Assembly (NCBI GenBank): GCA_029567505.1
Contig: JAKPXO010000070.1
Coordinates: 1 to 53,211, forward strand
Direction of reading: 5' to 3'
DNA length: 53,211 nt
DNA from: Acidobacteriota bacterium
GTDB lineage: Bacteria; Acidobacteriota; Thermoanaerobaculia; UBA5066
Below the pieces are notes generated by a model. It saw nothing but the letters and a program-made list of their open reading frames with translations, was not told where the DNA came from and did no database searches. Positions 32,089 through 47,931 of this stretch are shown piece after piece; positions within the stretch are counted from its first letter, which is position 1, and each line of letters starts with the position of its first letter. The position numbers were made by a program, and so were the translations under genes.

Positions 32089-35000
32089 CTGAGCCACGAC
32101 TTCATCCGCCTCCGCGGCGCACGCGAGCACAACCTCGCCGGGTTCGACCTCGAGATCCCGCGGGGGCAGCTGACCGTCGTCACCGGCGTCTCGGGCTCGG
32201 GCAAGTCGTCGCTCGCATTCGACACGCTCCTTCGCGAGGGGCAACGGCGTTTCCTCGAGCTGATGCCGTCGTACGCGCGGCAGTTCGCGGGCGGGTTCCG
32301 AAGGCCCGACCTCCTCGGCGCCGAGGGGCTCGGCCCGGCGATCGCCGTCGCGCAGGACGTCTCCTCCTCGAATCCCCGTTCCACGGTCGGGACGCTCACC
32401 GAGGTCCACGATCTCCTCCGCCTCCTCTTCGCGCGCCTCGGGGAGCCCCCGGCGGGGGTGAAGCCGACGCGCGGCCTCTTCTCCTGGAACGGCTCAGGGG
32501 CCTGCCCCGCCTGTTGCGGCCTCGGCCTCGAGGATCGTCTCGACCCGGAGCTCCTCGTCGCGGACGCGGGCAAGACGATCCGCGAGGGAGCGCTCCGCGT
32601 CTCCACCCCGAACGGCTACCTGATGTACTCGCAGGTGACGCTCGCCGTCCTCGACGAGGTCCTCCGCGCGCACGGCGGCTCCGTCGACGTGCCGTGGCGA
32701 GACCTCTCCGACGAGGTCCGGGAGGTCATCCTGCGCGGCTCGGACCGCGTCCTCGTCCCGTTCGGGAAGCACCCGCTCGAGAACCGGCTGAAGTGGAAGG
32801 GGATCACCGCGCGGCCGCGGCAGGAGGGGCACTACCGGGGCCTCCTGCCGGTGATGGAGGAGATCCTCCGCGGCAAGCGGAACGACTCGATCCTCCGCTT
32901 CGTCCGCTCGACCGCGTGCGCCGCGTGCGGCGGGGCGCGCCTCTCGAAGGAGGCGCTCTCGGTCACCTGGCGCGGGGCGACGATCGCCGAGCTGTCCACG
33001 CGGACGGCCCGCGAGCTCCGGCTCCTCTTCGCCGACGTGGGAGACGGAGAGGTTCTCGGGCCGATCCGCGACGAGATCGTCGCGCGCTGCGGGCTGCTGG
33101 AAGACCTCGGCCTCGGCTACCTCTCGTTCGACCGCGCCGCGCCCACGCTTTCCCCCGGCGAGGCGCGCCGCCTCAAGCTCCTCTCGCTCGCGCTCGGCGA
33201 GCTGCGCGGTCTCGTCGTCGTCCTCGACGAGCCGAGCGCCGGCCTCCACCCGCACGACACCGCCCGCCTCCTCGGCGTCCTCCGGCGCCTGACCGCGCGC
33301 GGGCAAACGGTCGTCGTCGTCGACCACGAGCCGCTCCTCGCCCGGAGCGCGGACTGGCTCGTCGACCTCGGGCCCGGTCCGGCGAAGGAGGGCGGCCGGC
33401 TCCTCTTCGCCGGCCCTCCCTCGGACCTCCTCGGACCCGACGGCCCCGACACCCCGACGCGCCGCGCGCTGCGCGGAGAGGGGACGGTCCCGACCGCACC
33501 GGTGAGCGCGGCGGCCGCAGGCGACGACGTCGTCCTCGAGGGTCTGTCGCGGCACAACGTCGCCGGGGCGACGCTGCGCCTCCGTCCTCGAGCCCTCAAC
33601 GTCGTCACGGGAGTCGCGGGCGCGGGTAAGACGTCGCTGATCGACGCGGCCGTGACCCGGCTCCGCGAGGGGGGATCGTTCGCGCGCGTCGTCGCCGTCG
33701 ACGCCGAGCCGATCGGGCGGACGCCCCGATCGAACGCCGCGACCTACACGGGCGCCTTCGACGCGATCCGCGAGCTCTTCGCCGCGACGCCCGAGGCGAA
33801 GGCGCGGGGCTTCGGCAAGGGGCACTTCACGTTCAACACCGCGGGCGGGCGGTGCGAGTCGTGCGAGGGGGCGGGCGTCCACGAGGTCGGCATGCGCTGG
33901 CTCGGATCGGTCGACCTCGCCTGCGGAGCGTGCGGAGGGAGGCGCCTCCACGCCGACGTCCTCGCGGTCAAGCTCGACGGCCTCTCCGTGGCCGACGTGC
34001 TCGACCTGACCGCCGCCGAGGCGGAAGAGCGGTTCCGCCGCGAGAGGAAGCTCGCGCGGGTCCTCGCGGTGCTCGTCGACCTCGGCCTCGGTTACCTCCC
34101 GCTCGGCCAGAGTGCGACGACGCTCTCGGGGGGGGAGGCGCAGCGCGTGAAGCTCGCGACGGAGCTCGCGCGGGCCACGGGCCCCGCGCTCGTCGTCCTC
34201 GACGAGCCGACGACCGGCCTCCACCCCTCCGACGTCGCCGCCCTCGTCGAGGCCTTCCGCCGTCTCACTGCGGCCGGGCACACGCTCCTCGTCGCCGACC
34301 ACGATCTCGACCTCCTCCGCGCCGCCGACCGCGTCACCGAGGTCGGCCCCGGGAGCGGACCGGAGGGAGGCCTCGTCGTCGTGGAAGGGACCGCCGCCGA
34401 CCTCGCGGCCTGCGCAGCGTCGCCGACCGGCGCAGCGCTCCGGGGAGACCTCACCGCACCGCTCCCGGCGGTCGTCCGCGACGGACGCGAAGACGAGCCG
34501 CTCGCGCTCTCGGGCGTGGCGACGCACAACCTCCGTGGTGTCGCGGCGCGCTTCCCCTGCCCCGGCCTGACGGTCGTCACCGGTCCCTCCGGCTCGGGGA
34601 AGTCGTCGCTCGTCTTCGACACGCTCCTCGCCGAATCGCAGGCGCGCTTCGCCGACCTCCTCTCCCCGTGGGCGCGGCGCTTCCTCCCGATGAAGGGCGG
34701 CGCTGAGCTGGAGTCGGCCTCGGGGCTCCACGCCGCGGTCGCGGTGCCGGCCGAGGCGGCGCGCCGGAACCCGCGGTCGACCGTCGGAACGACGACGGGG
34801 ATCGACGAGCTCCTTCGCCTCCTCTTCGCGCGCGGCGGCTCGCGCCCCTGCCCCGCCTGCGGCCGCGACGCTTCCGGCTCGGCCTGCGCCTGCGGCACCC
34901 GGCTCGAGCCGCTCCTCGCCTCCGACTTCTCGCCCCACTCCGAGCGGGGCGCCTGCCCCGCCTGCCGAGGACTCGGATTCGTCGAGGTCTGCGACCCGGC

Positions 35001-36993
35001 GCGCCTCGCGAGCCGGCCAGACCTCCCGCTCGACGGCGGCGCGATCGGCGGCACCCGCTTCGGCGCCTACCTCGGCGAGACCGACGGCCAGCACGTCGCG
35101 ACTCTCCGAGCCGCGGCCGCCGCGCTCGGCCTCGACGTCTCCGGGCCGTGGAGCGCCCTCTCCCCGGAAGCGCGCACCCTCGCCATGGACGGCGCCGGAG
35201 AGCGAGCGTTCGTAGTGGACTGGAGCTGGAAGCGCGGGAAGCGCCGCGGCGTCCACCGCCTCGCGGCGCGGTGGGCCGGCTTCGCGCGGCTCGTCGAGGC
35301 CGAGTACGAGAGGGTCCACGCCGACGAACGGGGCGAGGAGCTCGAGCCGCTCCTCGTCGACCGTCCCTGCACCGCCTGCGGCGGCGAGCGGCTCGCACCG
35401 CCCGCCCGGGCCGTGACGTTCGCCGGGAAGCGGGCGCCCGAGGCCGCGGCCGCGGAGGCCGACGCGCTCGCCGCCTGGCTCGACGGAATCGCGGCCGGTC
35501 GCGCCGGCGTCGCGCCCGACCCGCTCGCCGCGACGGCCCCCGTCCGCGAAGCGCTCGTCCCTCGCCTCCGCGCGCTCCGCGACGCCGGCCTCGGCTACCT
35601 CTCCCCCGTGCGCGAGATGGCCTCCCTCTCCGGAGGAGAGGCGCAGCGCGTCAGGCTCGCCGCGGCGCTCGGCGGCGGCCTCGTCGGCGTGACGTACGTC
35701 CTCGACGAGCCGACGCAGGGGCTCCACCCGCGCGACACAAGGCGACTGGTCGACGTCCTTCGCTCCCTCGCCGACGCCGGGAACGCCGTCGTCGTCGTGG
35801 AGCACGACGCCGCGCTCGTCGCCGCCGCGGACCACGTCGTCGAGCTCGGGCCCGGGGCCGGCCCCGAGGGCGGCCTCGTCGTGGCGGAAGGTCCGCCCGC
35901 CGCTCTCCGGTCGGATCGTTCCTCCTACACGGGGCGACTCCTCGCCCGCGCCGACGCCCCGGCACCCCGCGCTCCTCGCGCCGTCGTTCGCGGCGTCACC
36001 GTCCGCGGCGCCGCTCGCCACAACCTCAAGGAGATCGACGTCGACTTCCCCGCGGGCGGGCTCGTCGTCGTCGCGGGCGTCTCCGGGAGCGGCAAGTCGA
36101 CGCTCGTCCTCGACGTCCTCGCCCCGTCGCTCCGCGCCGCGCTCCGGGGCGACGGGCCCGTCGGCTGCCGCGCGCTCGAGCGGCACGCGGAGATCGCCGA
36201 GGTCCTCGCTTCCGACCAGGACGGTCTCGCCGTGAGCGGCGGCAGCACCGTCGCGACGCTCTCGGGCTTCGGAGACGAGCTCCGACGCCTCTTCGCCGCC
36301 ACCCCGGAAGCGAAAAGGCGGAGGCTCGGCGCCGCGGCCTTCTCCACGAGCGTCCCGGGCGGGCGCTGCGAAGCGTGCGCCGGCCGAGGTGTCGTTCGCG
36401 TGCCGATGGACCTCCTTCCCGACGTGAACGTCGGCTGCGAGACTTGTGGCGGGCGCCGCTTCTCGGACGACGTTCTCGCCTGTCTCCTCGACGGGCGGTC
36501 GCTCACCGACCTCCTCGACGCGACGGTCTCCGACGCGACGTCGTGGCTCGCGTCGAGTCCCGCGCTCGCCCCGCCCCTCGCCGCGCTCCGCGACCTCGGC
36601 CTCGGCTACCTCCGGGTCGGGCAGGAAGGGGCGACGCTCTCCTCGGGCGAGCGGCAGCGTCTCCGCCTCGCGTGCCTCCTCGCCACGCCGCGCCGCGGGC
36701 GCGTCGCCCTCCTCCTCGACGAGCCGACGCGCGGCCTCGGCCTCGACGACGTCGACCGCCTCCTCTCTGCCCTCGGCCTCCTCGCCGACGAAGGGCACCT
36801 CGTGGTCCTCGTCGAGCACCACCCGGCCGTCCTCGCCGCGGCCGACCGGGTCGTCGAGCTCGGTCCCGATGGAGGAGCCGGAGGAGGACGGCTCGTCGGA
36901 GCCGGAGCACCGTCGACGGACGGCCTTCAGGGACGAGCGGAGAGCCGCCCTCCCCACGAACCGAGACGCGGCGCGGCCCGACGGTCCGGATAG
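32089..36993 (+). CDS. Double-length UvrA-like ABC ATPase with four ABC modules
   Basis: Likely CTG start with SD GAGGA (LSHDFIRLRGAREHNLAGFDLEIPR); Walker A motifs near 32184, 33610, 34580, 36076; four signature/Walker B sets; CxxC zinc motifs. Confidence 0.88.
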   Translation: MSHDFIRLRGAREHNLAGFDLEIPRGQLTVVTGVSGSGKSSLAFDTLLREGQRRFLELMPSYARQFAGGFRRPDLLGAEGLGPAIAVAQDVSSSNPRSTVGTLTEVHDLLRLLFARLGEPPAGVKPTRGLFSWNGSGACPACCGLGLEDRLDPELLVADAGKTIREGALRVSTPNGYLMYSQVTLAVLDEVLRAHGGSVDVPWRDLSDEVREVILRGSDRVLVPFGKHPLENRLKWKGITARPRQEGHYRGLLPVMEEILRGKRNDSILRFVRSTACAACGGARLSKEALSVTWRGATIAELSTRTARELRLLFADVGDGEVLGPIRDEIVARCGLLEDLGLGYLSFDRAAPTLSPGEARRLKLLSLALGELRGLVVVLDEPSAGLHPHDTARLLGVLRRLTARGQTVVVVDHEPLLARSADWLVDLGPGPAKEGGRLLFAGPPSDLLGPDGPDTPTRRALRGEGTVPTAPVSAAAAGDDVVLEGLSRHNVAGATLRLRPRALNVVTGVAGAGKTSLIDAAVTRLREGGSFARVVAVDAEPIGRTPRSNAATYTGAFDAIRELFAATPEAKARGFGKGHFTFNTAGGRCESCEGAGVHEVGMRWLGSVDLACGACGGRRLHADVLAVKLDGLSVADVLDLTAAEAEERFRRERKLARVLAVLVDLGLGYLPLGQSATTLSGGEAQRVKLATELARATGPALVVLDEPTTGLHPSDVAALVEAFRRLTAAGHTLLVADHDLDLLRAADRVTEVGPGSGPEGGLVVVEGTAADLAACAASPTGAALRGDLTAPLPAVVRDGREDEPLALSGVATHNLRGVAARFPCPGLTVVTGPSGSGKSSLVFDTLLAESQARFADLLSPWARRFLPMKGGAELESASGLHAAVAVPAEAARRNPRSTVGTTTGIDELLRLLFARGGSRPCPACGRDASGSACACGTRLEPLLASDFSPHSERGACPACRGLGFVEVCDPARLASRPDLPLDGGAIGGTRFGAYLGETDGQHVATLRAAAAALGLDVSGPWSALSPEARTLAMDGAGERAFVVDWSWKRGKRRGVHRLAARWAGFARLVEAEYERVHADERGEELEPLLVDRPCTACGGERLAPPARAVTFAGKRAPEAAAAEADALAAWLDGIAAGRAGVAPDPLAATAPVREALVPRLRALRDAGLGYLSPVREMASLSGGEAQRVRLAAALGGGLVGVTYVLDEPTQGLHPRDTRRLVDVLRSLADAGNAVVVVEHDAALVAAADHVVELGPGAGPEGGLVVAEGPPAALRSDRSSYTGRLLARADAPAPRAPRAVVRGVTVRGAARHNLKEIDVDFPAGGLVVVAGVSGSGKSTLVLDVLAPSLRAALRGDGPVGCRALERHAEIAEVLASDQDGLAVSGGSTVATLSGFGDELRRLFAATPEAKRRRLGAAAFSTSVPGGRCEACAGRGVVRVPMDLLPDVNVGCETCGGRRFSDDVLACLLDGRSLTDLLDATVSDATSWLASSPALAPPLAALRDLGLGYLRVGQEGATLSSGERQRLRLACLLATPRRGRVALLLDEPTRGLGLDDVDRLLSALGLLADEGHLVVLVEHHPAVLAAADRVVELGPDGGAGGGRLVGAGAPSTDGLQGRAESRPPHEPRRGAARRSG

Positions 36994-37917: not shown

Positions 37918-40785
37918 ATGACCGAGCCAGGACAGTCGACAGGAAGCGGCTCCCGGGAGGAGGCCGAGAGCGTCCTGCGCGAGGAGCGGGCGCTCTACCG
38001 CGACCTCGTCGAGGCCCAGCCCCGCGGCATCTACCGGGTTCGCTCGCATCACGCCGAGGCCGATGCCGCCGGAGTCAGTCTCGAATCCGGCCGGGCGCGG
38101 TACGTCGTCGAGTTCGTCTCGAGCCGCTTCCTCCAGCTCCTCGGCATGGATCCCGAGGAGTTCAGCACGCGCCACGGCTCCATCGACCACCTGATCCATC
38201 CCGAGGACCGGCCGTCGTTCGTCCAGGCGAACGAGCGGGCGCTCACGGGGCAGCTCCCGCTGCAGTGGGAAGGCCGCCTCACGGTTCGGGGGGCCGTCCG
38301 CTGGTTCCGGTTCGAGTCCGTCCCGAGTGCCATCGAGGGAGGAGGAGCCGTCTGGACCGGCACGCTCGAGGACGTCACGGATCGGCGGCAGGCGGTCGTG
38401 GGCCTCCGCGAGTCCGAAGCGCTCCTCCGGAGCTTCTTCGAGATCCCGCTCGTCGGCGCCTGCATCACCTCCCCGACGAAGGGCTGGCTCGAGGTCAACG
38501 ACAGCCTCTGCCACATGCTCGGGTACAGCCGCGAGGAGCTGGTACAGCTCACCTGGTCCGAGCTCACCCATCCCGACGACCTCGCGACGGACGTCGACCA
38601 GTTCGACCGGGTGATCCGGGGAGAAGTCGACGGGTACTCGATGGAGAAGCGTTACGTCCGGAAGGACGGGAGCGCCGTTCCGGTCGAGCTCGCCGTCAGC
38701 TGCGTGCGTGGGCCGGACGGCAGCGTCAACCACCTGATCGCGCTCATCTCGGACATCACCGAGAGGAGGCGGGTCGAAGAGCAGCTCCGCTGTCACCGCG
38801 AGCGCCTCGAGGAGCTCGTTGCCGAGAGGACCGCCCAGCTCGAGAAGAACCGGGCGCTCCTCGACGCCACCTCCCGCCTCGCACGGGTCGGGGGCTGGGA
38901 GTACGACGTCGGGCGCGAGAAGCTCACCTGGACCGAGATGGTCCGGGAGATCCACGAGGTCGAGCCCGGATTCGACCTCACGGTCGCGGCCGGCCTCGGC
39001 TTCTACGCCCCGGCGTCCCGGCCCGTCGTCGAGCCCGCCCTCTCACGCGCGGTCACCGCAGGAGAGCCTTTCGACCTCGAGCTCCAGCTGATCACCGCGA
39101 GGGGACGGTGCGTGTGGGTTCGCGCGGTCGGCCGGCCCGTGGTCGAGGGCGGCGCCGTCGTCCGAGTCGTCGGAGTCCTCCAGGACATCGACGCCCGGAA
39201 GAGGAACGAGGAAGACCTGGCGCGCTACCGGGCCCGGCTCGAGGAGCTCGTCGCCGAGCGAACGGCCGAGGTCGAGAAGGCGAACGCCCGCCTCGTCGAG
39301 GCGCAGGCCGTCGCCCACCTCGGAAGCTGGGAGTGGGACGCCCTCCGCGACGAGGTCCGAGGGTCGGAGGAGCTGCACCGGCTCTTCGGCGATCCCCCCG
39401 AAAGGCTCACGAGTTACCGGCAGATCGTCGACTTCGTCCATCCCGACGACCGGGAGAGCGTGCGGATCGCGCTCGAGGAGGCCCGAAGTCGCGGCGACGG
39501 CGCCCTCTTCCAGGCGTCCTACCGCATCCTGCTTCCCGACGGCCGGCTTCGCTTCATCAACGGTCGCGGCGTCGTCAACGTCGACGGCGCCGGGCGGCTT
39601 ACCGGCATGCTCGGGACCTGCCACGACGTCACGACCATCCGCGAGGCCGAGGAGGCGCTGCGGGAGAGCGAGGAGCGCCTCCGCGGCATCGTTTCCGAGG
39701 CTCCCTTCCCGATCGGACTCTACGCCGACGACGGCGAGATCCTCCTCGTCAACAACGCGTGGTGCCGGATCACCGGGTACGCGCCCGAGGAGCTCCGAAC
39801 GGTCGGTGACTGGGTCGCGCGGGCCTACGGGGAACGCAGAGAGCTCGCCCGGGCCGACATCGAGTCGAGCTTCTCGTTCGCCGACGCGGCCCGGGAAGGG
39901 GAGTTCGCGATCCGGACGAAGAGCGGCGAGAGACGCTACTGGGACTTCAGCTCGAGCCCCGTCGGGCGACTCCCCGACGGCCGGCGGCTCGTGACGACGA
40001 TGGCGATGGACGTGACCGAGCGCCGGCACGCCGAGGAGGAGGTGTGGGCCTACCGGGAGCACCTCGAGGAGCTCGTTCGGGAAAGAACCGCCGAGCTCGA
40101 GGCCGCGAACCGGGAGATGGAGAGCTTCTCGTACAGCGTCTCCCACGACCTGCGCGCGCCGCTCCGGGCGCTCGACGGGTTCAGCGCGATCCTCGCGCAG
40201 GAGTATCCGGACCGGCTCGACGAAAGGGGGCGCGGCTACCTCGACCGGATCCGGGCCGCGGCCCGGACGATGGCGCTCCTCGTCGACGGCCTCCTCAGCC
40301 TCGCCCGCCTCAACCGGAAGGAGCTGACGGTGAGTCCGGTCGACCTCTCGGCCCTCGCGCGGCGGGTCTCCGTGGAACTGACGTCGCTGGAGCCGGGCCG
40401 GACCGTCCGGCTCAACGTGAGGGACGGGTTGACCGCGGACGGTGATCCCCGCCTCCTGCACGTCCTCCTCGAGAACCTGATCGGGAACGCCCTGAAGTTC
40501 ACCTCCTCGCGTCCGGAGGCGACGATCGAGGTCGGGTGCACCGAGCGGGACGGGGAGAGGGTCTTCTTCGTGAAGGACGACGGGGTCGGGTTCGACATGG
40601 CGTACGCGTCGAAGCTCTTCCTCCCGTTCCAGCGCCTCCACAGCGCGAGCGACTTCCCGGGAACGGGAATCGGCCTGGCGACCGTCCAACGGATCGTCGC
40701 GCGCCACGGCGGACGGATCTGGCCCGAGTCGGCCCCCGACGCCGGTGCGACGTTCTTCTTCACGCTCGGCGGCGGCGGAGGCTGA
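37918..40785 (+). CDS. Multi-PAS sensor histidine kinase
   Basis: About five PAS domains; SYSVSHDLRAPLRALDGFSAIL; N-box ENLIGNALKFTSS; GTGIGLATVQRIVARHGG. Confidence 0.93.
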   Translation: MTEPGQSTGSGSREEAESVLREERALYRDLVEAQPRGIYRVRSHHAEADAAGVSLESGRARYVVEFVSSRFLQLLGMDPEEFSTRHGSIDHLIHPEDRPSFVQANERALTGQLPLQWEGRLTVRGAVRWFRFESVPSAIEGGGAVWTGTLEDVTDRRQAVVGLRESEALLRSFFEIPLVGACITSPTKGWLEVNDSLCHMLGYSREELVQLTWSELTHPDDLATDVDQFDRVIRGEVDGYSMEKRYVRKDGSAVPVELAVSCVRGPDGSVNHLIALISDITERRRVEEQLRCHRERLEELVAERTAQLEKNRALLDATSRLARVGGWEYDVGREKLTWTEMVREIHEVEPGFDLTVAAGLGFYAPASRPVVEPALSRAVTAGEPFDLELQLITARGRCVWVRAVGRPVVEGGAVVRVVGVLQDIDARKRNEEDLARYRARLEELVAERTAEVEKANARLVEAQAVAHLGSWEWDALRDEVRGSEELHRLFGDPPERLTSYRQIVDFVHPDDRESVRIALEEARSRGDGALFQASYRILLPDGRLRFINGRGVVNVDGAGRLTGMLGTCHDVTTIREAEEALRESEERLRGIVSEAPFPIGLYADDGEILLVNNAWCRITGYAPEELRTVGDWVARAYGERRELARADIESSFSFADAAREGEFAIRTKSGERRYWDFSSSPVGRLPDGRRLVTTMAMDVTERRHAEEEVWAYREHLEELVRERTAELEAANREMESFSYSVSHDLRAPLRALDGFSAILAQEYPDRLDERGRGYLDRIRAAARTMALLVDGLLSLARLNRKELTVSPVDLSALARRVSVELTSLEPGRTVRLNVRDGLTADGDPRLLHVLLENLIGNALKFTSSRPEATIEVGCTERDGERVFFVKDDGVGFDMAYASKLFLPFQRLHSASDFPGTGIGLATVQRIVARHGGRIWPESAPDAGATFFFTLGGGGG

Positions 40786-40806: not shown

Positions 40807-43800
40807 CTAGGACGGCCGGTCGAGGACCTCGCGGACTCGCCGCAGGAGGTCCAGGGGGGCGACGGGCTTCATGACGAGCTCGAAGCTCTCGCGGCCCGCT
40901 CCCCGGACCTCGGCGAGGTCGGGCGAGTAGCCGCTCGAGAAAAGCAGCTTCACGCCCGGCCGAAGCCTGCGGATCTCGTCCGCGGCCTCCCGGCCCCCCT
41001 TCCTCGGCATGATCAGGTCCATGAGGACGAGGTGGATGCCGTCACGCCGGGCCGCGAATTTCTCGATCGCGTCCTGGCCGTCCTCGGCCAGGACGACGTC
41101 GTACCCCGCCTCGGCCAGGACCGTGAGGAGAAGGTGCCGGACGCTCGCCTCGTCCTCCGCGACGAGGATCGTCTCGCTCCCGCCGCGGACGGGCGGAGAC
41201 GCCGCCACCTCGTCGTCCATCGCCGAGCCGGCCTCGTGGATCGGGAGGTAGACCCGGATCACGCTGCCGCCGCCGGGCTCGCTGTAGACGCTGAGGAAGC
41301 CCCGGTGCTGCTTCACGATCCCGTAGACGATCGACATCCCGAGGCCGGTCCCCTTCCCCGCCTCCTTCGTCGTGAAGAACGGCTCGAAGATCCTCTTGCG
41401 CGTCTCCTCGTCCATGCCGCAGCCCGTGTCGGCGACCGAGAGGACGGCGTATCTTCCCGGGGAGCCCCAGCCGTGGAGCGCCGAGAACCGCTCGTCGAGC
41501 ACCTGGACTCCCGTCTCGATCGTCAGGACGCCGCCCTTCGGCATCGCGTCCCGCGCGTTCGTCGCGAGGTTGATCAGCACCTGCTCGAGCTGGCCACCGT
41601 CGGCGAAGACGACGAGCGTCGCGTCGTTCGTCACCGTCCGGAGCCTCACGTCCTCTCCGATGATCCGGAGGAGGAGCTTCTGCACCCGGAGGACGACGTC
41701 ATGGAGGTTCAGGGCCTTCGGGGACATGGCCTGCTTGCGGCTGAACGCGAGAAGGGCCCGCGTCAGCTGAGAGGCCCTCTCCGCGGCCGCCACGACCTGT
41801 CCCAGCCGCTCGGCCTGCTTCGCGTCGGCCGAGAGCGCGGGGCCCAGGAGGTGGCAGTAGCCCAGGATCACGGAGAGGATGTTGTTGAAGTCGTGGGCGA
41901 CGCCCCCCGCGAGCTGCCCGATCGCTTCCATCTTCTGGGCCTGGAGGAGCTGGGACTCGAGCTTCCGTTGGTCCGAAACGTCCCGGAAGACGCAGGCCGC
42001 TCGCGTTACGACGTCCCCCTCTTGGACCGGGATGACGAGGACCGACAGGTCGCGAAGCCCTCTCCCCGGGGACTCCATCGTCATCCCGAACTCCCGCTCC
42101 TTCCCGGCGAAGCACGCGTCCAGCTCCGGCCCGAGCCTCGCGAGAGCCTCCTCCCCGAGCACCTCCCCGACCCCGCGTCCCGCGACCCTCTCGCCGGACG
42201 CGCCGCGGAACGAGAGGAGGGCGCCGTTAGCGAGGACGAACCGGCGGACGTCGTCGAGGACGCAGATCAGGTCCGTCGAGCTCTCGATCACCTTGCGGTA
42301 CTCGTGGAGCCGCGTCTCGGCCTCCCGCCGGTCCGTCACGTCCTCGAAGATCCCGAGGACGCCGTAGACCTCGCCCCCGCCGTTCGTGAGGGGGACCTTC
42401 GACGTGTCGAGCCACGTGGCCGAGCCGTCCGGCATTCGCTGGGACTCGAGGATGTGGAGCTTCGGTCGCCCGGAGGCGATGACCTCCCGGTCGTCGGCCC
42501 GGTAGGCCTCGGACTCGCTCCGCGTCCAGGGGAGGTCGAAGTCCGTCAGGCCCACGATCCCGGCCGGGTCCTTCAGGCCGGCTCGTGAGGCCATCTGCCG
42601 GTTGCAGCCCATGTAGACGCTCTCCCTGTCCTTCCAGAAGACCGACTGCGGGATCGCGTCCATCACGTGCGCGAGCATGTTGCGGCTCCGGCGCAGCTCC
42701 TCCTCCGCCGCCTCCCGGACCGCCACCTCCGCGACGAGGGCGGCGTTCGCCGCGGCCAGCTCGGCCGTCCGCTCCACGACGCGCCGCTCCACCTCCGCAT
42801 ACGCCCTCCTCAGCTCGTCCCGCGTCCTCTCGAGCGAAGCCTTCTCGTCCTCGAGCGCCCGGTTCACGAGGCGAAGCTGCTCCGGGCTCGGAAGCGCGAG
42901 GATCCTCGGGAGGAGCGGCCAGAGGACGACCGCGGTCGCCAGCGACGCGGCGGCGCAGATCGAGTCGACCGTCGCCTGCCACCAGTCCACCGGCCACCAG
43001 AGGCCGAGGACGTGGACGAAATGCGTCGTGCCGCACGCGAGGATAAAGAGGCCGAACAGGACGAGGACCCACGAGAACGGAAGGTCCTTCCTTCGGACCT
43101 TGAAGACGATGAGGAAGACCGGGATCGACGCATAGGAGACGGCGATCACGCCGTTGGCGATCGCCATGACCATCATCAGGGCCGGCGTCATCGTCCCGGG
43201 GAGGGCCCCTCGGATCTCGGCCCCGTCCGCCATCGCGAGCATCGGGACGACGATCAGCGCCGCGAGCGCCGCCGCCGGCGCGAGGACGCGCGGCACGAGC
43301 GCGAGGCCCCGCCGCCACGCCTCTCTCGGCGCGACGAACGCCTCGAGCGGCGCCTTCCGGAGGCGCAGGCTGTTCGTGACGACGAAGAGCGAGCTGAAGA
43401 CCATCGCTCCGGCCGCCACCATCGGGCTCAGGAGGCCGTAGGCCGCGACGGGGATCAGCGCGACGTTGTAGAAGAGCGCCCAGACGAGGTTCTGGTGGAC
43501 CGTCTGGAGGGACGCGCGAGAGAGGACGATCGCCCGTCCGACGCCCCGCAGGTCGCCGCTCATCAGCGTGACGGCGGCCGCCTCCTTGGCGACGTCCGTC
43601 CCGGTCCCGAGGGCGATGCCGACGTCGGCCTGAGCGAGAGCCGGCGCGTCGTTGATCCCGTCGCCGACCATCACGACGACGGGCGGGGGCGTGCCGGGCG
43701 CCCTCGGCGCCTCGCGGAGCCTCCGGATTGCCTCCGCCTTCTCCTCCGGCCTCACCTCCGCGCGCACCCGCTCGATGCCGACCTCGCGGGCGATCGCCTC

Positions 43801-45603
43801 GGCGGTCCGGAGGTTGTCTCCCGTCAGCATGACGACGTCGAGCCCGAGGGAAGCGAGCTCTTCCACGGCCTCGCGGGCCTCGGGCTTGACGGCGTCGGCG
43901 ACGGCCAGGACGCCGATCGCCACCGGCGCGCCCCCCTCCGGCGGCGCCGCGGCCACGACCATCGCGGTCTTTCCCTCAGCCTGGAGTCGGTCGACCTCGG
44001 GCGCCACCGCCTCCAGCGGGACTCCCGCCTCGCGCATGAGCCAGAGCGTTCCGACGAGGACCTCGCGGCCGTCCACGATCGCGCGGATCCCCGCGCCGCT
44101 CACCGCCCGAAGCTCGCGGGGCGCCGAGAGAGAGAGTCCTCGCGCCTCGCCCGCTCGCGCCAGCGCCCGGCCGGCCGGGTGCTCCGACCCCAGCTCGGCG
44201 CTCGCCGCGAGCCGGAGGACCTCCGACTCCTCGCCCCGTCTCACGGCGACGACGTCGGTGAGACCCGGCTCGCCGCGGGTGAGGGTTCCGGTCTTGTCGA
44301 GGACGACGACCGTCGCCGCCCCGACCCGCTCGAGCGCCTCGCCCGTCCGGAAGAGGAGGCCTCGGGAGGCGCCTCGCGTCGTCCCGACGAGGACGGCCAT
44401 CGGCGTCGCGAGGCCGATCGCGCACGGGCAGGCGATGATGAGGACGGCGACGGCGTTCATCAGCGCCCCCGGCACGTCGATCCGCGCGACGAAGAGCCAG
44501 AGGAGGAGCGTCCCGAGCGCCGACGCCAGGACGAGCGGGACGAACACGCGGCCGACGGCGTCGGCGACCTTCTGGATCGGGGCTCTCCGCGCCTGCGCCT
44601 CCTCCACGAGGCGGACGATCCGGGCGAGCGTCGCGTCGGCCCCGACCCGCGTCGCCTCGACCCGCACGAGGCCGTCGCGGTTGACGGTAGCGCCGATCAC
44701 CTCGTCGCCCGGCCCCTTCACCACGGGCATCGACTCACCCGTGACCATCGACTCGTCGAACGCGGAGCGCCCTTCGCGGACGAGACCGTCGACCGGCACC
44801 CGCTCGCCGGGTCGGACCACGACGGTCTCGCCGACCCGGACGTCCGCCGCGCCGACCTCGACCTCGACACCGTCCCGGACGACGCGAGCCCGGACCGGGC
44901 TCAGGTCGAGAAGCCCTCGGAGGGCCCGCGACGCCCGCCCGCGGACCCGCGCCTCCAGGTACCGGCCGAGCGAGACGAACGTGACGATCGCGGCTCCCGT
45001 CTCGAAGTAGACGTCGGAGCCCGGCAGGACCCCGAGAACGACGCCCGCGCTCGCCCCCCACGCGACGGTGGAGCCGAGCGCGACGAGGACGTCCATGCTC
45101 GAGGCGCCGGCCCGGAGGCTCCGCCAGGAGCGGACGTAGAACGGCGCTCCGACGACGAGCTGGACGATCGTCGCGGCCAGGAGCAGGACGAGCTGGTCAT
45201 ACGGGAAGGCCGGAAGGCCGAGGTCGCGGCCCATGCTGTAGACGATCAGCGGGCCGGTCAGGACGAGGCCGAGGACGAGGCGCGCCCGCGCGGGACCGGG
45301 GCGCTCGCCCCCCGGGTCTCCGTCGTCCTCGCCGGTTCCGACGCCGGGCGTGCCGAAGCCCGCCCTCCTCACGCACGCGGCGACCCGGCCGACGTCGACC
45401 CGGGCGGCGTCGAACTCGACGTGCAGCGCGTCGGTCGCGACGCTGACGCGCGCGGAGCGGACCCCCGCGAGCTGCCCCACCTTCCACTCGATCAGCCGGG
45501 CGCAGCTCGCGCAGGTCATCCCCGAGACGGTGAGGACGGCGCTCCCGCGAGGCGGCTCGGCGGCGGGTCGAGGCGAGGTCGGGACGCGGTCGGGCGGCGT
45601 CAT
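40807..45603 (-). CDS. Fusion: Cu+ P1B-type ATPase + ethylene-receptor-like TM domain + PAS + histidine kinase + REC
   Basis: Continuous 1598-aa [29 protein letters not shown]; then [12 protein letters not shown]...[70 protein letters not shown]...LVLMDLIMP. Confidence 0.92.
42880..43191 (-). other. Ethylene-receptor (ETR1)-like three-TM copper-site domain within the fusion protein
   Basis: Residues equivalent to ETR1 Y32, I35, P36, I62, C65, H69 conserved; D25 equivalent is Asn (codon 43153-43155); Cys codon 43033-43035, His codon 43021-43023. Confidence 0.8.
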
Positions 45604-45625: not shown

Positions 45626-46069
45626 TCAGCCCGCCTCGGCGCCCGGAGGCGTGCTCGGGCTCGTACCGCCCCGAAGAAGGGCGTCGATCGCGCGGACGAT
45701 CTCCTCGACGGAGGATCCCTTGGCCGCGAAGCCGAGGATCCCGATGGCGCGTCCGGCGGTCTCGTCCTCCTCCCGGACCCATCCGGACGTCAGGACGACC
45801 GGGAACTCCGGACGCACGCGAAGGAGACGCTCCGCGAGCTCGAATCCCGCGAGATGGGGCATCGAGAGGTCGGAGACGAGGGCGTCGAACGCGTCCGGCT
45901 CCTTGAGGAACGCCTCGAGCGCCGCACGCGCGTCGGTATGGCCCGTGACCCGGTACCCCAGGTCGCCCAGGGAGAGCGTCAGGAGCTCCACGAGAGGCTC
46001 CTCGTCGTCCACGAGAAGGACCCGCTCGATCGGCGCTCCCGGCCGTACGAGTCCCCGCCGGTCGCTCAT
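45626..46069 (-). CDS. Single-domain response regulator (REC)
   Basis: [23 protein letters not shown]...[21 protein letters not shown]; 22 nt upstream of the fusion gene. Confidence 0.88.
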
Positions 46070-46280
46070 GCCCCGTCTCTCGCGGCTTCCCACACGAGGG
46101 AACCGCCCGGCTCCGCCAGGCCGGGACCGCTGTCCCCGTCCATCACGTCGGCATTCTCCCTCCCACCGCCCGGATTGTCTCCTGCGGCGGGCTCCGGGCG
46201 ACACCGTTCCGGCGAAGCGCCGAGCCGGGAGCCCACGCGCACTCGCCGGGCGGAGCGACCCGCCGGCGTGCCCGGCTCGG

Positions 46281-47618
46281 TCAGGCCGGCTCGATGGGCT
46301 TCGATTCGGTCGCCGCCGTCGGCGTCACGGCGTCCAGGCCGTGCCCCTTCGCGCCCCGTTCGCTCCTCCAGAGAAGGAACGAGAAGACGAAGCCGACTGA
46401 GGCGAGGGCGCCGAGCGCAACCATCACGGGCGCCCAGCCGGCGGGGTGCGCGGCGCTCGCGCCGGACGCATCCTTCAGGAGGCCGAGGCCCCAGCTCATT
46501 CCGGCCCAGCCGACCTGCTGGCAGAACGTCATCAGGGCGTAGGCCGAGCCGAGACGCTGCTCGGGGACGAGGTAGGTCACGGCGGGCCAGAGGACGGCCG
46601 GGACGAGCGCGAAGGCGAGGCCAAGCATCGCCATGAGGAGCGTCGGCGGGGCGGAGGAGAACGCGAGGAGGAAGAACGGCGGGACGAGGAGCGCCGACCC
46701 GGCCGCCATCAGGAGCGCCCGCTTCCCGATCTTGTCGACGAGGAGGCCGAAGAGCGGCATCCCGATCATCGAGAGGAGCGGGAGGATCGACTTCAGATTC
46801 CCGGCGTCCTCGGGCGCGAGCCCCTTCGCCTCGATGAAGTAGAGGTTCGCGAAGGTCCGGAACGGGAAGATCGTCGAGTAGAACGCGACGCAGAGGCCGA
46901 CGACCCACCAGTAGCCGAGGTCGAAACGGACGAGGTCCTTCCAGACGAGCTTGTCGGTCGCGCCGGCCTTCTTCACGGCGTAGACGCGGGCCGCCCGCTT
47001 CTCGAGGCCAGCGTAGATCAGGGCGAAGACGAGCCAGACGACGCCGAGGACGGCCGCGAGGAGGAGGGGCGGCTGCCAGGTCTCGAAGAGCGACTTCGCG
47101 AAGTCGGGCGACTTGTCGGCGGCCCAGGAGCCGAGCCGGCCGACGAGGAGCTGGATCGCGAGGGCGAAGGAGATCTCCTTCCCCTTGAACCAGCGGCCGA
47201 CGACCGTCGTCGCGGCGACGATGAAGCATTCCGAGCCGACGCCGAGGAGGAACCGGCCCAGCATCATCCCGACCCACGGCGTGTCGGGAAGGAGCGCGGG
47301 GAGGACGGCGATCGCGATGCTCCCCGCGGCCCCGATCGCCCCGAAGAGGACGGCCGACGCGGCGACCCCCATCCGGTCGATCAGGATTCCGCCGGCGATC
47401 AGCGTCAGGAGCGCCGCGACGTTGTAGGCCGTGTCGAGGAGTCCGACCTGCGCGCCCGTGAAACCGAACGCCTTCTCGAGGAGCGGCGTGACCGGGTAGA
47501 GGGCGTCGAAGACGTAGTAGTTGCCGAACATCGCGACGCTGCACGAGAGGAGGACGAGCCAGCGGTAGGCGGTCGGCGGCAGGGGGCGCGGGTCGGCGGC
47601 CGGGAGGGCTTCGGACAT
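46281..47618 (-). CDS. MFS transporter
   Basis: 12-TM-like; MFGNYYVFDALYPVTPLLEKAFGFTGAQVGLLDTAYNVAALLTLIAGGILIDRMG. Confidence 0.88.
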   Translation of the reverse strand: MSEALPAADPRPLPPTAYRWLVLLSCSVAMFGNYYVFDALYPVTPLLEKAFGFTGAQVGLLDTAYNVAALLTLIAGGILIDRMGVAASAVLFGAIGAAGSIAIAVLPALLPDTPWVGMMLGRFLLGVGSECFIVAATTVVGRWFKGKEISFALAIQLLVGRLGSWAADKSPDFAKSLFETWQPPLLLAAVLGVVWLVFALIYAGLEKRAARVYAVKKAGATDKLVWKDLVRFDLGYWWVVGLCVAFYSTIFPFRTFANLYFIEAKGLAPEDAGNLKSILPLLSMIGMPLFGLLVDKIGKRALLMAAGSALLVPPFFLLAFSSAPPTLLMAMLGLAFALVPAVLWPAVTYLVPEQRLGSAYALMTFCQQVGWAGMSWGLGLLKDASGASAAHPAGWAPVMVALGALASVGFVFSFLLWRSERGAKGHGLDAVTPTAATESKPIEPA

Positions 47619-47673
47619 GCGGGGCGGACGATACTCCTTCCCCGCGTCGGGGAGCGGCGAGGCCCGTGTCCCG

Positions 47674-47931
47674 TCAGCCGGTCCGGCGGGCGAGGAGAGC
47701 CGAGACCTCCCGGCGGAGACCTTCGGGCAGCTCCTCGAGCCGAGACTCGACCTCCGCGCGAAGACGGCCCGCCTCCTCCCCGTCGAGCAGGGTTTCGGCG
47801 TCGAGGAGGTCGTAATCGAGCGTCGCACGGACGATGCCGTGGGCCGCGGGGGCGACCGCGCCGATGAGCGCCGCCGGCGTGCCCCGTCGCTGGAGGACGT
47901 CGAGGACCTCGTGGAGCAGCGTGTCGCTCAC
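47674..47931 (-). CDS. Short nucleotidyltransferase-like protein (possibly truncated)
   Basis: AALIGAVAPAAHGIVRATLDYDLLDAE resembles the MNT/AbiEii-type GGxAxxxHGxxRxTxDxD motif; GTGA overlap with upstream gene. Confidence 0.55.
   Translation of the reverse strand: MSDTLLHEVLDVLQRRGTPAALIGAVAPAAHGIVRATLDYDLLDAETLLDGEEAGRLRAEVESRLEELPEGLRREVSALLARRTG

Follow-up and report, generated by a model that had tools for sequence, protein, structure and literature searches.

Architecture of the fusion protein

The window analyzed here is a 53,211-nucleotide stretch of contig JAKPXO010000070.1 from an Acidobacteriota genome. Its minus strand contains an open reading frame (ORF) at positions 40807–45603, free of internal stops and encoding 1,598 amino acids (aa), in which a CopA-type ATPase, an ETR1_N domain, and a hybrid histidine kinase are joined in one chain, as seen from the ORF list and Pfam. 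A first-pass annotation of this DNA had described the single unbroken frame, naming no strand, and had listed an HMA domain and a P1B-1 ATPase followed by PAS, HisKA/HATPase, and receiver domains. The Pfam and NCBIfam domain scans agree with the domains and motifs it named; it overlooked an additional transmembrane (TM) helix at aa 762–791 and the ligand-site substitutions described below.

The ATPase part comprises, on the same strand, an HMA domain (PF00403; aa 23–83; 45355–45537), the E1-E2_ATPase region with the actuator and membrane core (PF00122; aa 234–413; 44365–44904), which includes the CPC motif at 392–394, and the HAD hydrolase region with the P and N domains (PF00702; aa 432–660; 43624–44310). 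The additional helix, TM9 (aa 762–791; 43231–43320), lies between TM8 of the ATPase and ETR1_N and was recognized by hydropathy, an AlphaFold2 helix, and the alignment. The ETR1_N domain (PF25487, E = 1e-29; aa 809–904; 42892–43179) contains residues N817, C857, H861, H864, and D880, assigned by residue mapping. A long helix in the AlphaFold2 model, probably a coiled coil (aa 907–959; 42727–42885), leads to a PAS_4 domain (PF08448; aa 982–1094; 42322–42660) and a partial match to a second PAS domain (PF13188; aa 1102–1139; 42187–42300). The C-terminal part consists of HisKA (PF00512; aa 1229–1291; 41731–41919), HATPase_c (PF02518; aa 1335–1455; 41239–41601), and a Response_reg receiver domain (PF00072; aa 1479–1590; 40834–41169), a combination that defines a hybrid histidine kinase.

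The window protein scored 542 bits against the NCBIfam model of Cu-translocating ATPases TIGR01511 (cut-off 397). The motifs GMTCASC, TGES, CPC, DKTGT, and SEHP were located at positions 28, 288, 392, 436, and 473, and GDGIND, YN, MVFSS, and CGTTH at 647, 712, 734, and 857, respectively. Thus, all sequence features of the P1B-1 (CopA) group are present, namely, CPC in TM6, YN in TM7, MxxSS in TM8, DKTGT, HP, GDGxND, and TGE. Among proteins of solved structure, the pump's top relatives are Archaeoglobus CopA (3j09, E = 3e-156) and Legionella LpCopA (3rfu). In the alignment to 3rfu, the copper-path Met and Glu residues and the CPC, YN, and MxxSS positions are identical in the fusion; the path residues are those that we take to be M148, E189, and E205 of LpCopA, counted along the chain.

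The catalytic and transport motifs of the ATPase are invariant across the fusions found in other genomes (see below). Of the six fusion genomes examined for ATPases, three (G411, G407, and G409) contained no Cu-ATPase above the TIGR01511 cut-off other than the fusion, and the pump part is therefore probably active in transport. G785 and G595 have another Cu-ATPase, separate from the fusion, that also passes the cut-off. Its presence could be expected if the ATPase part were a non-transporting copper receptor that used ETR1_N and the kinase to signal ligand binding or its own conformational cycling. The long chain with sensory output would suit such a role, and regulatory roles for ATPases are conceivable, but the invariance of all catalytic and transport motifs and the lack of another such Cu-ATPase in three genomes make this explanation decidedly improbable.

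The chain of P1B-1 ATPases ends in the cytosol after TM8, and ETR1 begins on the outer side of the membrane. All 12 known fusions contain TM9, and the charges of the loops obey the positive-inside rule; the single added helix between the ATPase and ETR1_N therefore restores the ETR1 orientation. An AlphaFold2 model of aa 752–960, built with 66 rows, had a mean predicted local distance difference test (pLDDT) score of 87, with values of 73–77 for the TM9 blocks. It contained TM9, three ETR1-type helices (807–837, 844–869, and 874–902), and the long helix at 907–959. The 12 fusion sequences also served to model aa 1–937, but the membrane region of that model was of low quality (pLDDT 61), and it was not used. 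A Foldseek search of the PDB with the 752–960 model yielded nothing significant, and the junction sequence profile retrieved no solved relative of ETR1_N.

Distribution, origin, and selective constraint

The in-frame fusion with an identical junction is carried by 12 genomes, that of the window and 11 others, whose fusions are 51%–94% identical to it over the membrane part. The carriers belong to Acidobacteriota, Syntrophobacteraceae, Bacteroidota, and Chlorobiota, with one unplaced metagenome-assembled genome (MAG). Within the window's family, three genomes have the junction, and all three belong to the window's genus; the other two (L039 and L040, labeled Thermoanaerobaculia and Acidobacteria) are 93%–94% identical. 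A species-wide scan by junction alignment, with one genome per species (~85,000 genomes), used the single peptide pattern FI[LVF][AG]CGxTH[FVA], which fusions diverging at this site escape, and revealed about 10 fusion loci. Outside the window's genus, the carriers were Tangfeifania diversioriginum, where the fusion is located on a 176-kb contig, Bacteroidales/Bacteroidetes MAGs, a Syntrophobacteraceae MAG (73%), a Chlorobiota MAG, and the unplaced MAG. In a sample of 396 Bacteroidota genomes, the fusion occurred in three, including the seed, and the two additional carriers had it within contigs of 0.67 and 1.9 Mb. The Syntrophobacteraceae MAG was the only carrier among 297 genomes of its phylum, and a draw of 396 genomes from the window's phylum contained it only in the window's own genome.

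The order of the ATPase, one added helix, ETR1_N, and coil is shared by all 12 proteins, but the C-terminal part is variable. The hybrid kinase with a receiver is present in the window and in L041, while the Bacteroidota fusions reaching the C-terminus have PAS and a different type of HisKA, without a receiver. In G409 (locus L150, 152–7789), the chain stops after PAS, and the next gene encodes a separate 1,264-aa GAF/PAS histidine kinase. Therefore, the conserved unit consists of the pump, TM9, and ETR1_N.

In the tree of ten fusion and 68 standalone ETR1_N domains, the fusions formed one clade (100/100) whose stem was long (0.9 changes per site). The fused ATPases likewise formed a single clade (100/99) that excluded the remaining Cu-ATPases encoded by these genomes. 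One row of the ATPase tree taken as a non-fusion protein, S_L178, proved to be a second piece of the fused ORF F_L168 (same contig, open frame), so the clade consists of fused ATPases. The simplest explanation would be that the fusion arose once and was then transferred between phyla, with the mismatch between the trees and species relationships judged by eye; some of the MAG contigs may be mis-binned.

The whole chain is under purifying selection. In within-genus comparisons, the ratio of nonsynonymous to synonymous substitution rates (dN/dS) was the lowest for ETR1_N (0.09–0.10), followed by the HisKA-HATPase core (0.14) and the ATPase (0.15–0.16), and constraint was looser in the HMA, PAS, and receiver parts (0.30–0.53 in most comparisons).

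These data bear on the possibility that the fusion is incidental, with two uncoupled enzymes on one chain, or that it is an assembly artefact. Its rarity among species genomes would agree with an incidental origin, as would the gene context of standalone ETR1_N domains: a P-type-ATPase-like match, and a weak one, was found near one of the 70 loci, hence there is no general linkage to P1B ATPases. On the other hand, the same junction and TM9 occur in 12 genomes of several phyla and form one clade in both trees, and selection acts along the entire length. A chimeric assembly was ruled out by the independent assemblies with contigs of up to 1.9 Mb, the same architecture being recovered in 11 further genomes. 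This explanation is thus very improbable.

The ETR1_N copper site and neighboring genes

The first-pass annotation recognized the membrane block after the ATPase as being of the ETR1 type with the copper ligands Cys65 and His69, and this assignment holds. The window domain scored 103 bits against PF25487, and the other fusions scanned scored 103–112 bits, with a gathering cut-off of 27. The equivalents of Cys65 and His69 are C857 and H861, invariant among the fusions; the residue numbering is that of what we take to be the N-terminal sequence of Arabidopsis ETR1.

The site as a whole is altered. Y32, I35, P36, I62, C65, and H69 are retained in all fusions, while D25 is replaced by Asn (N817) and K91 by Asp (D880) in 12 of 12. 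In Arabidopsis ETR1, seven residues (the six retained ones and D25) are required for ethylene binding, mutation of D25 or C65 abolishes it, and D25 was modeled as positioning H69 and pairing with K91 (PMC11819568). The D25N substitution itself was not found to have been tested in our literature search. Among the 68 standalone relatives, D occupies position 25 in 65 and K position 91 in 64, and the two positions covary (64 D/K, 1 D/H, 2 N/E, and 1 N/R) according to an exact test that ignores relatedness. Asn at 25 together with Glu at 91 is found in the standalone ETR1_N kinases L058 and L106 (Methylococcaceae, Methylovulum), which represent a second loss of D25 paired with an acidic residue at 91.

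Eight residues are invariant in all 12 fusions and in the fusions only: M791, M805, M810, M811, M813, N817, H864, and D880. The standalone domains mostly have W, L, W, and H at 805, 810, 811, and 813. His at residue 72 (H864) is unique to the fusions and places C857, H861, and H864 on one helix face, and a helical wheel also brings M810, M813, N817, Y824, and P828 to a common face. Five of the seven Met-majority columns of this region are invariant, compared to none of 14 for Val. The PHGxC motif preceding TM1 in 66 of the 68 standalone domains is absent from the fusions. In those standalone loci (L049–L118), PHGxC may be an outer-side metal-acquisition site.

The fusion could be a true receptor of ethylene (or another olefin or CO) with a built-in copper loader, in which the pump metallates the receptor and the kinase reports the gas. 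This is consistent with the confident PF25487 match and the six invariant ethylene-binding residues, with the direct binding of the plant copper ATPase RAN1, the proposed main copper donor, to ETR1 (dissociation constant, KD, 33 nM; PMC6656775), and with the existence of the ethylene-binding bacterial ETR1_N proteins AzoEtr1 and SynEtr1, the former adjoining a small response regulator (PMC11819568). However, both D25, essential in the plant receptor, and K91, mostly kept in standalone receptors, are substituted in every fusion, PHGxC is lost, and presumed anaerobes, for which no connection with ethylene is known, are among the hosts. We consider an ethylene receptor unlikely; it retains some weight because six of the seven residues are kept and D25N was not found tested. 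Accordingly, of the proposal in the first-pass annotation that a copper pump is fused to an ethylene-receptor-like kinase, the fusion is real and conserved, but an ethylene receptor as such fits poorly with D25N, K91D, the lost PHGxC, and the gained Met and His residues. Its second option, a sensor monitoring the copper handled by the pump, appears to agree better with the residues found.

A single-domain response regulator (Response_reg; 45626–46204, minus strand) lies 22 bp upstream of the fusion gene and is its probable operon partner. A small response regulator also adjoins the fusion in G595, G785, and G411. Further upstream is a major facilitator superfamily transporter gene (MFS_1; 46281–47828, minus strand), whose link to the fusion is uncertain. 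On the other side, a convergent gene (37918–40785, plus strand) ending 22 bp from the fusion stop codon encodes a histidine kinase of 955 aa that contains five PAS_3 stretches; at its start, the HisKA domain is similar to those of the fused kinases of Bacteroidota members. The window also encodes a UvrA-like protein of 1,576 aa (32263–36993, plus strand) that matches ABC ATPase and UvrA DNA-binding domains; its length would accommodate two tandem UvrA units.

In the Bacteroidota genomes G595 and G785, cydAB is located immediately upstream of the fusion (L144, 12222–14614; L145, 4812–7204). This linkage would be expected of a redox or respiration sensor, where copper at the membrane site would respond to O2, CO, or the quinone state, the kinase would tune respiration, and the pump would merely load the site. 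The bd oxidase encoded by cydAB is copper-free. Such a sensor is improbable, since the cydAB linkage is limited to one close pair and was not observed in the window, G411, or G407.

Proposed copper transceptor model and known systems

The altered copper site suggests that the fusion now reads copper rather than ethylene. We favor, at a probability of roughly 0.5, a copper transceptor, a single chain combining a P1B-1 Cu+ exporter with a dedicated kinase that senses copper on the outer side of the membrane. The ATPase would collect cytosolic Cu+ through the HMA and CPC sites and release it across the membrane, and TM9 would re-cross the membrane to place the ETR1-type bundle (TM10–12) in its usual orientation. 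The Met cluster (M791, M805, M810, M811, and M813) and the C857-H861-H864 ladder could constitute a Cu(I) site in the outer half of the membrane, the Met and His residues acting as a putative Cu(I) relay. This site would be filled with the pump output or with outer-side copper, so that export either supplies Cu(I) to the ETR1-type site or competes with it for Cu(I), and occupancy sets the kinase. The signal would pass along the coiled coil and through the PAS domains to reach the kinase, the receiver, and the small response regulator.

Several observations weigh against the transceptor. The Met residues might be mere hydrophobic fillers, the six retained ethylene-binding residues leave ethylene as a possible ligand, and the neighbors of the fusion are not classical copper-resistance genes, with cydAB present in two genomes.

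The transceptor could also, more tentatively, represent a new class of signaling proteins, in which the export of an ATP-driven metal pump loads and sets an attached ethylene-receptor-type kinase, and the fold has been re-purposed from gas to Cu(I) sensing via the swapped D25 and K91 and the new Met/His relay; we regard this broader proposal as possible but doubtful. As far as the searchable literature goes, the fusion would be the first P-type ATPase-histidine kinase transceptor: our searches found no report there of a P-type ATPase joined to either a histidine kinase or ETR1_N, which is weak evidence given the poor coverage of subscription journals. It touches on how copper is delivered to ethylene receptors and on what the bacterial ancestors of this fold sensed. 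It offers a single-chain system for tracing copper and suggests that one branch of the fold is tuned to copper itself.

Comparison with known systems shows several partial parallels. The fusion shares with CopA (3j09 and LpCopA 3rfu) HMA, TGES, CPC, DKTGT, SEHP, YN, MxxSS, and the aligned copper-path residues, whereas its chain extends beyond the pump through one more TM helix and ETR1_N to a kinase. CbrA (PMC13022988; PMC7096432), one of the SLC5-STAC kinases, is an earlier example of a transceptor with transporter and kinase on one polypeptide, but it combines a secondary transporter with STAC, instead of a primary P-type ATPase with ETR1_N. The window protein had no Pfam match to the SLC5 transporter or STAC domains and falls outside the SLC5-STAC family. 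The region by which E. coli CusS senses periplasmic copper contains His-rich and Met-triad sites (PMC10100754), in resemblance to the proposed role of Met and His in sensing outer-side Cu(I) in the fusion; however, CusS is separate from the pump, and its sensing domain is periplasmic, not a bundle of membrane helices.

AzoEtr1 and SynEtr1 have in common with the fusion ETR1_N with Cys65 and His69, PAS and kinase output, and a neighboring small response regulator. Unlike the fusion, they lack an ATPase, and AzoEtr1 retains D25 (as D35) and K91 (as K98), where the fusion has Asn and Asp, along with additional Met and His residues and no PHGxC. A further parallel is the Arabidopsis RAN1/ETR1 pair, in which a Cu-ATPase loads an ETR1-type copper site; the first-pass annotation had drawn this analogy aptly, as the plant proteins are direct binding partners (PMC6656775). 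RAN1 and ETR1 are two proteins acting in trans, while the fusion is one chain with an altered site. This natural pump-receptor fusion backs, in cis, the RAN1-ETR1 copper handover proposed for plants.

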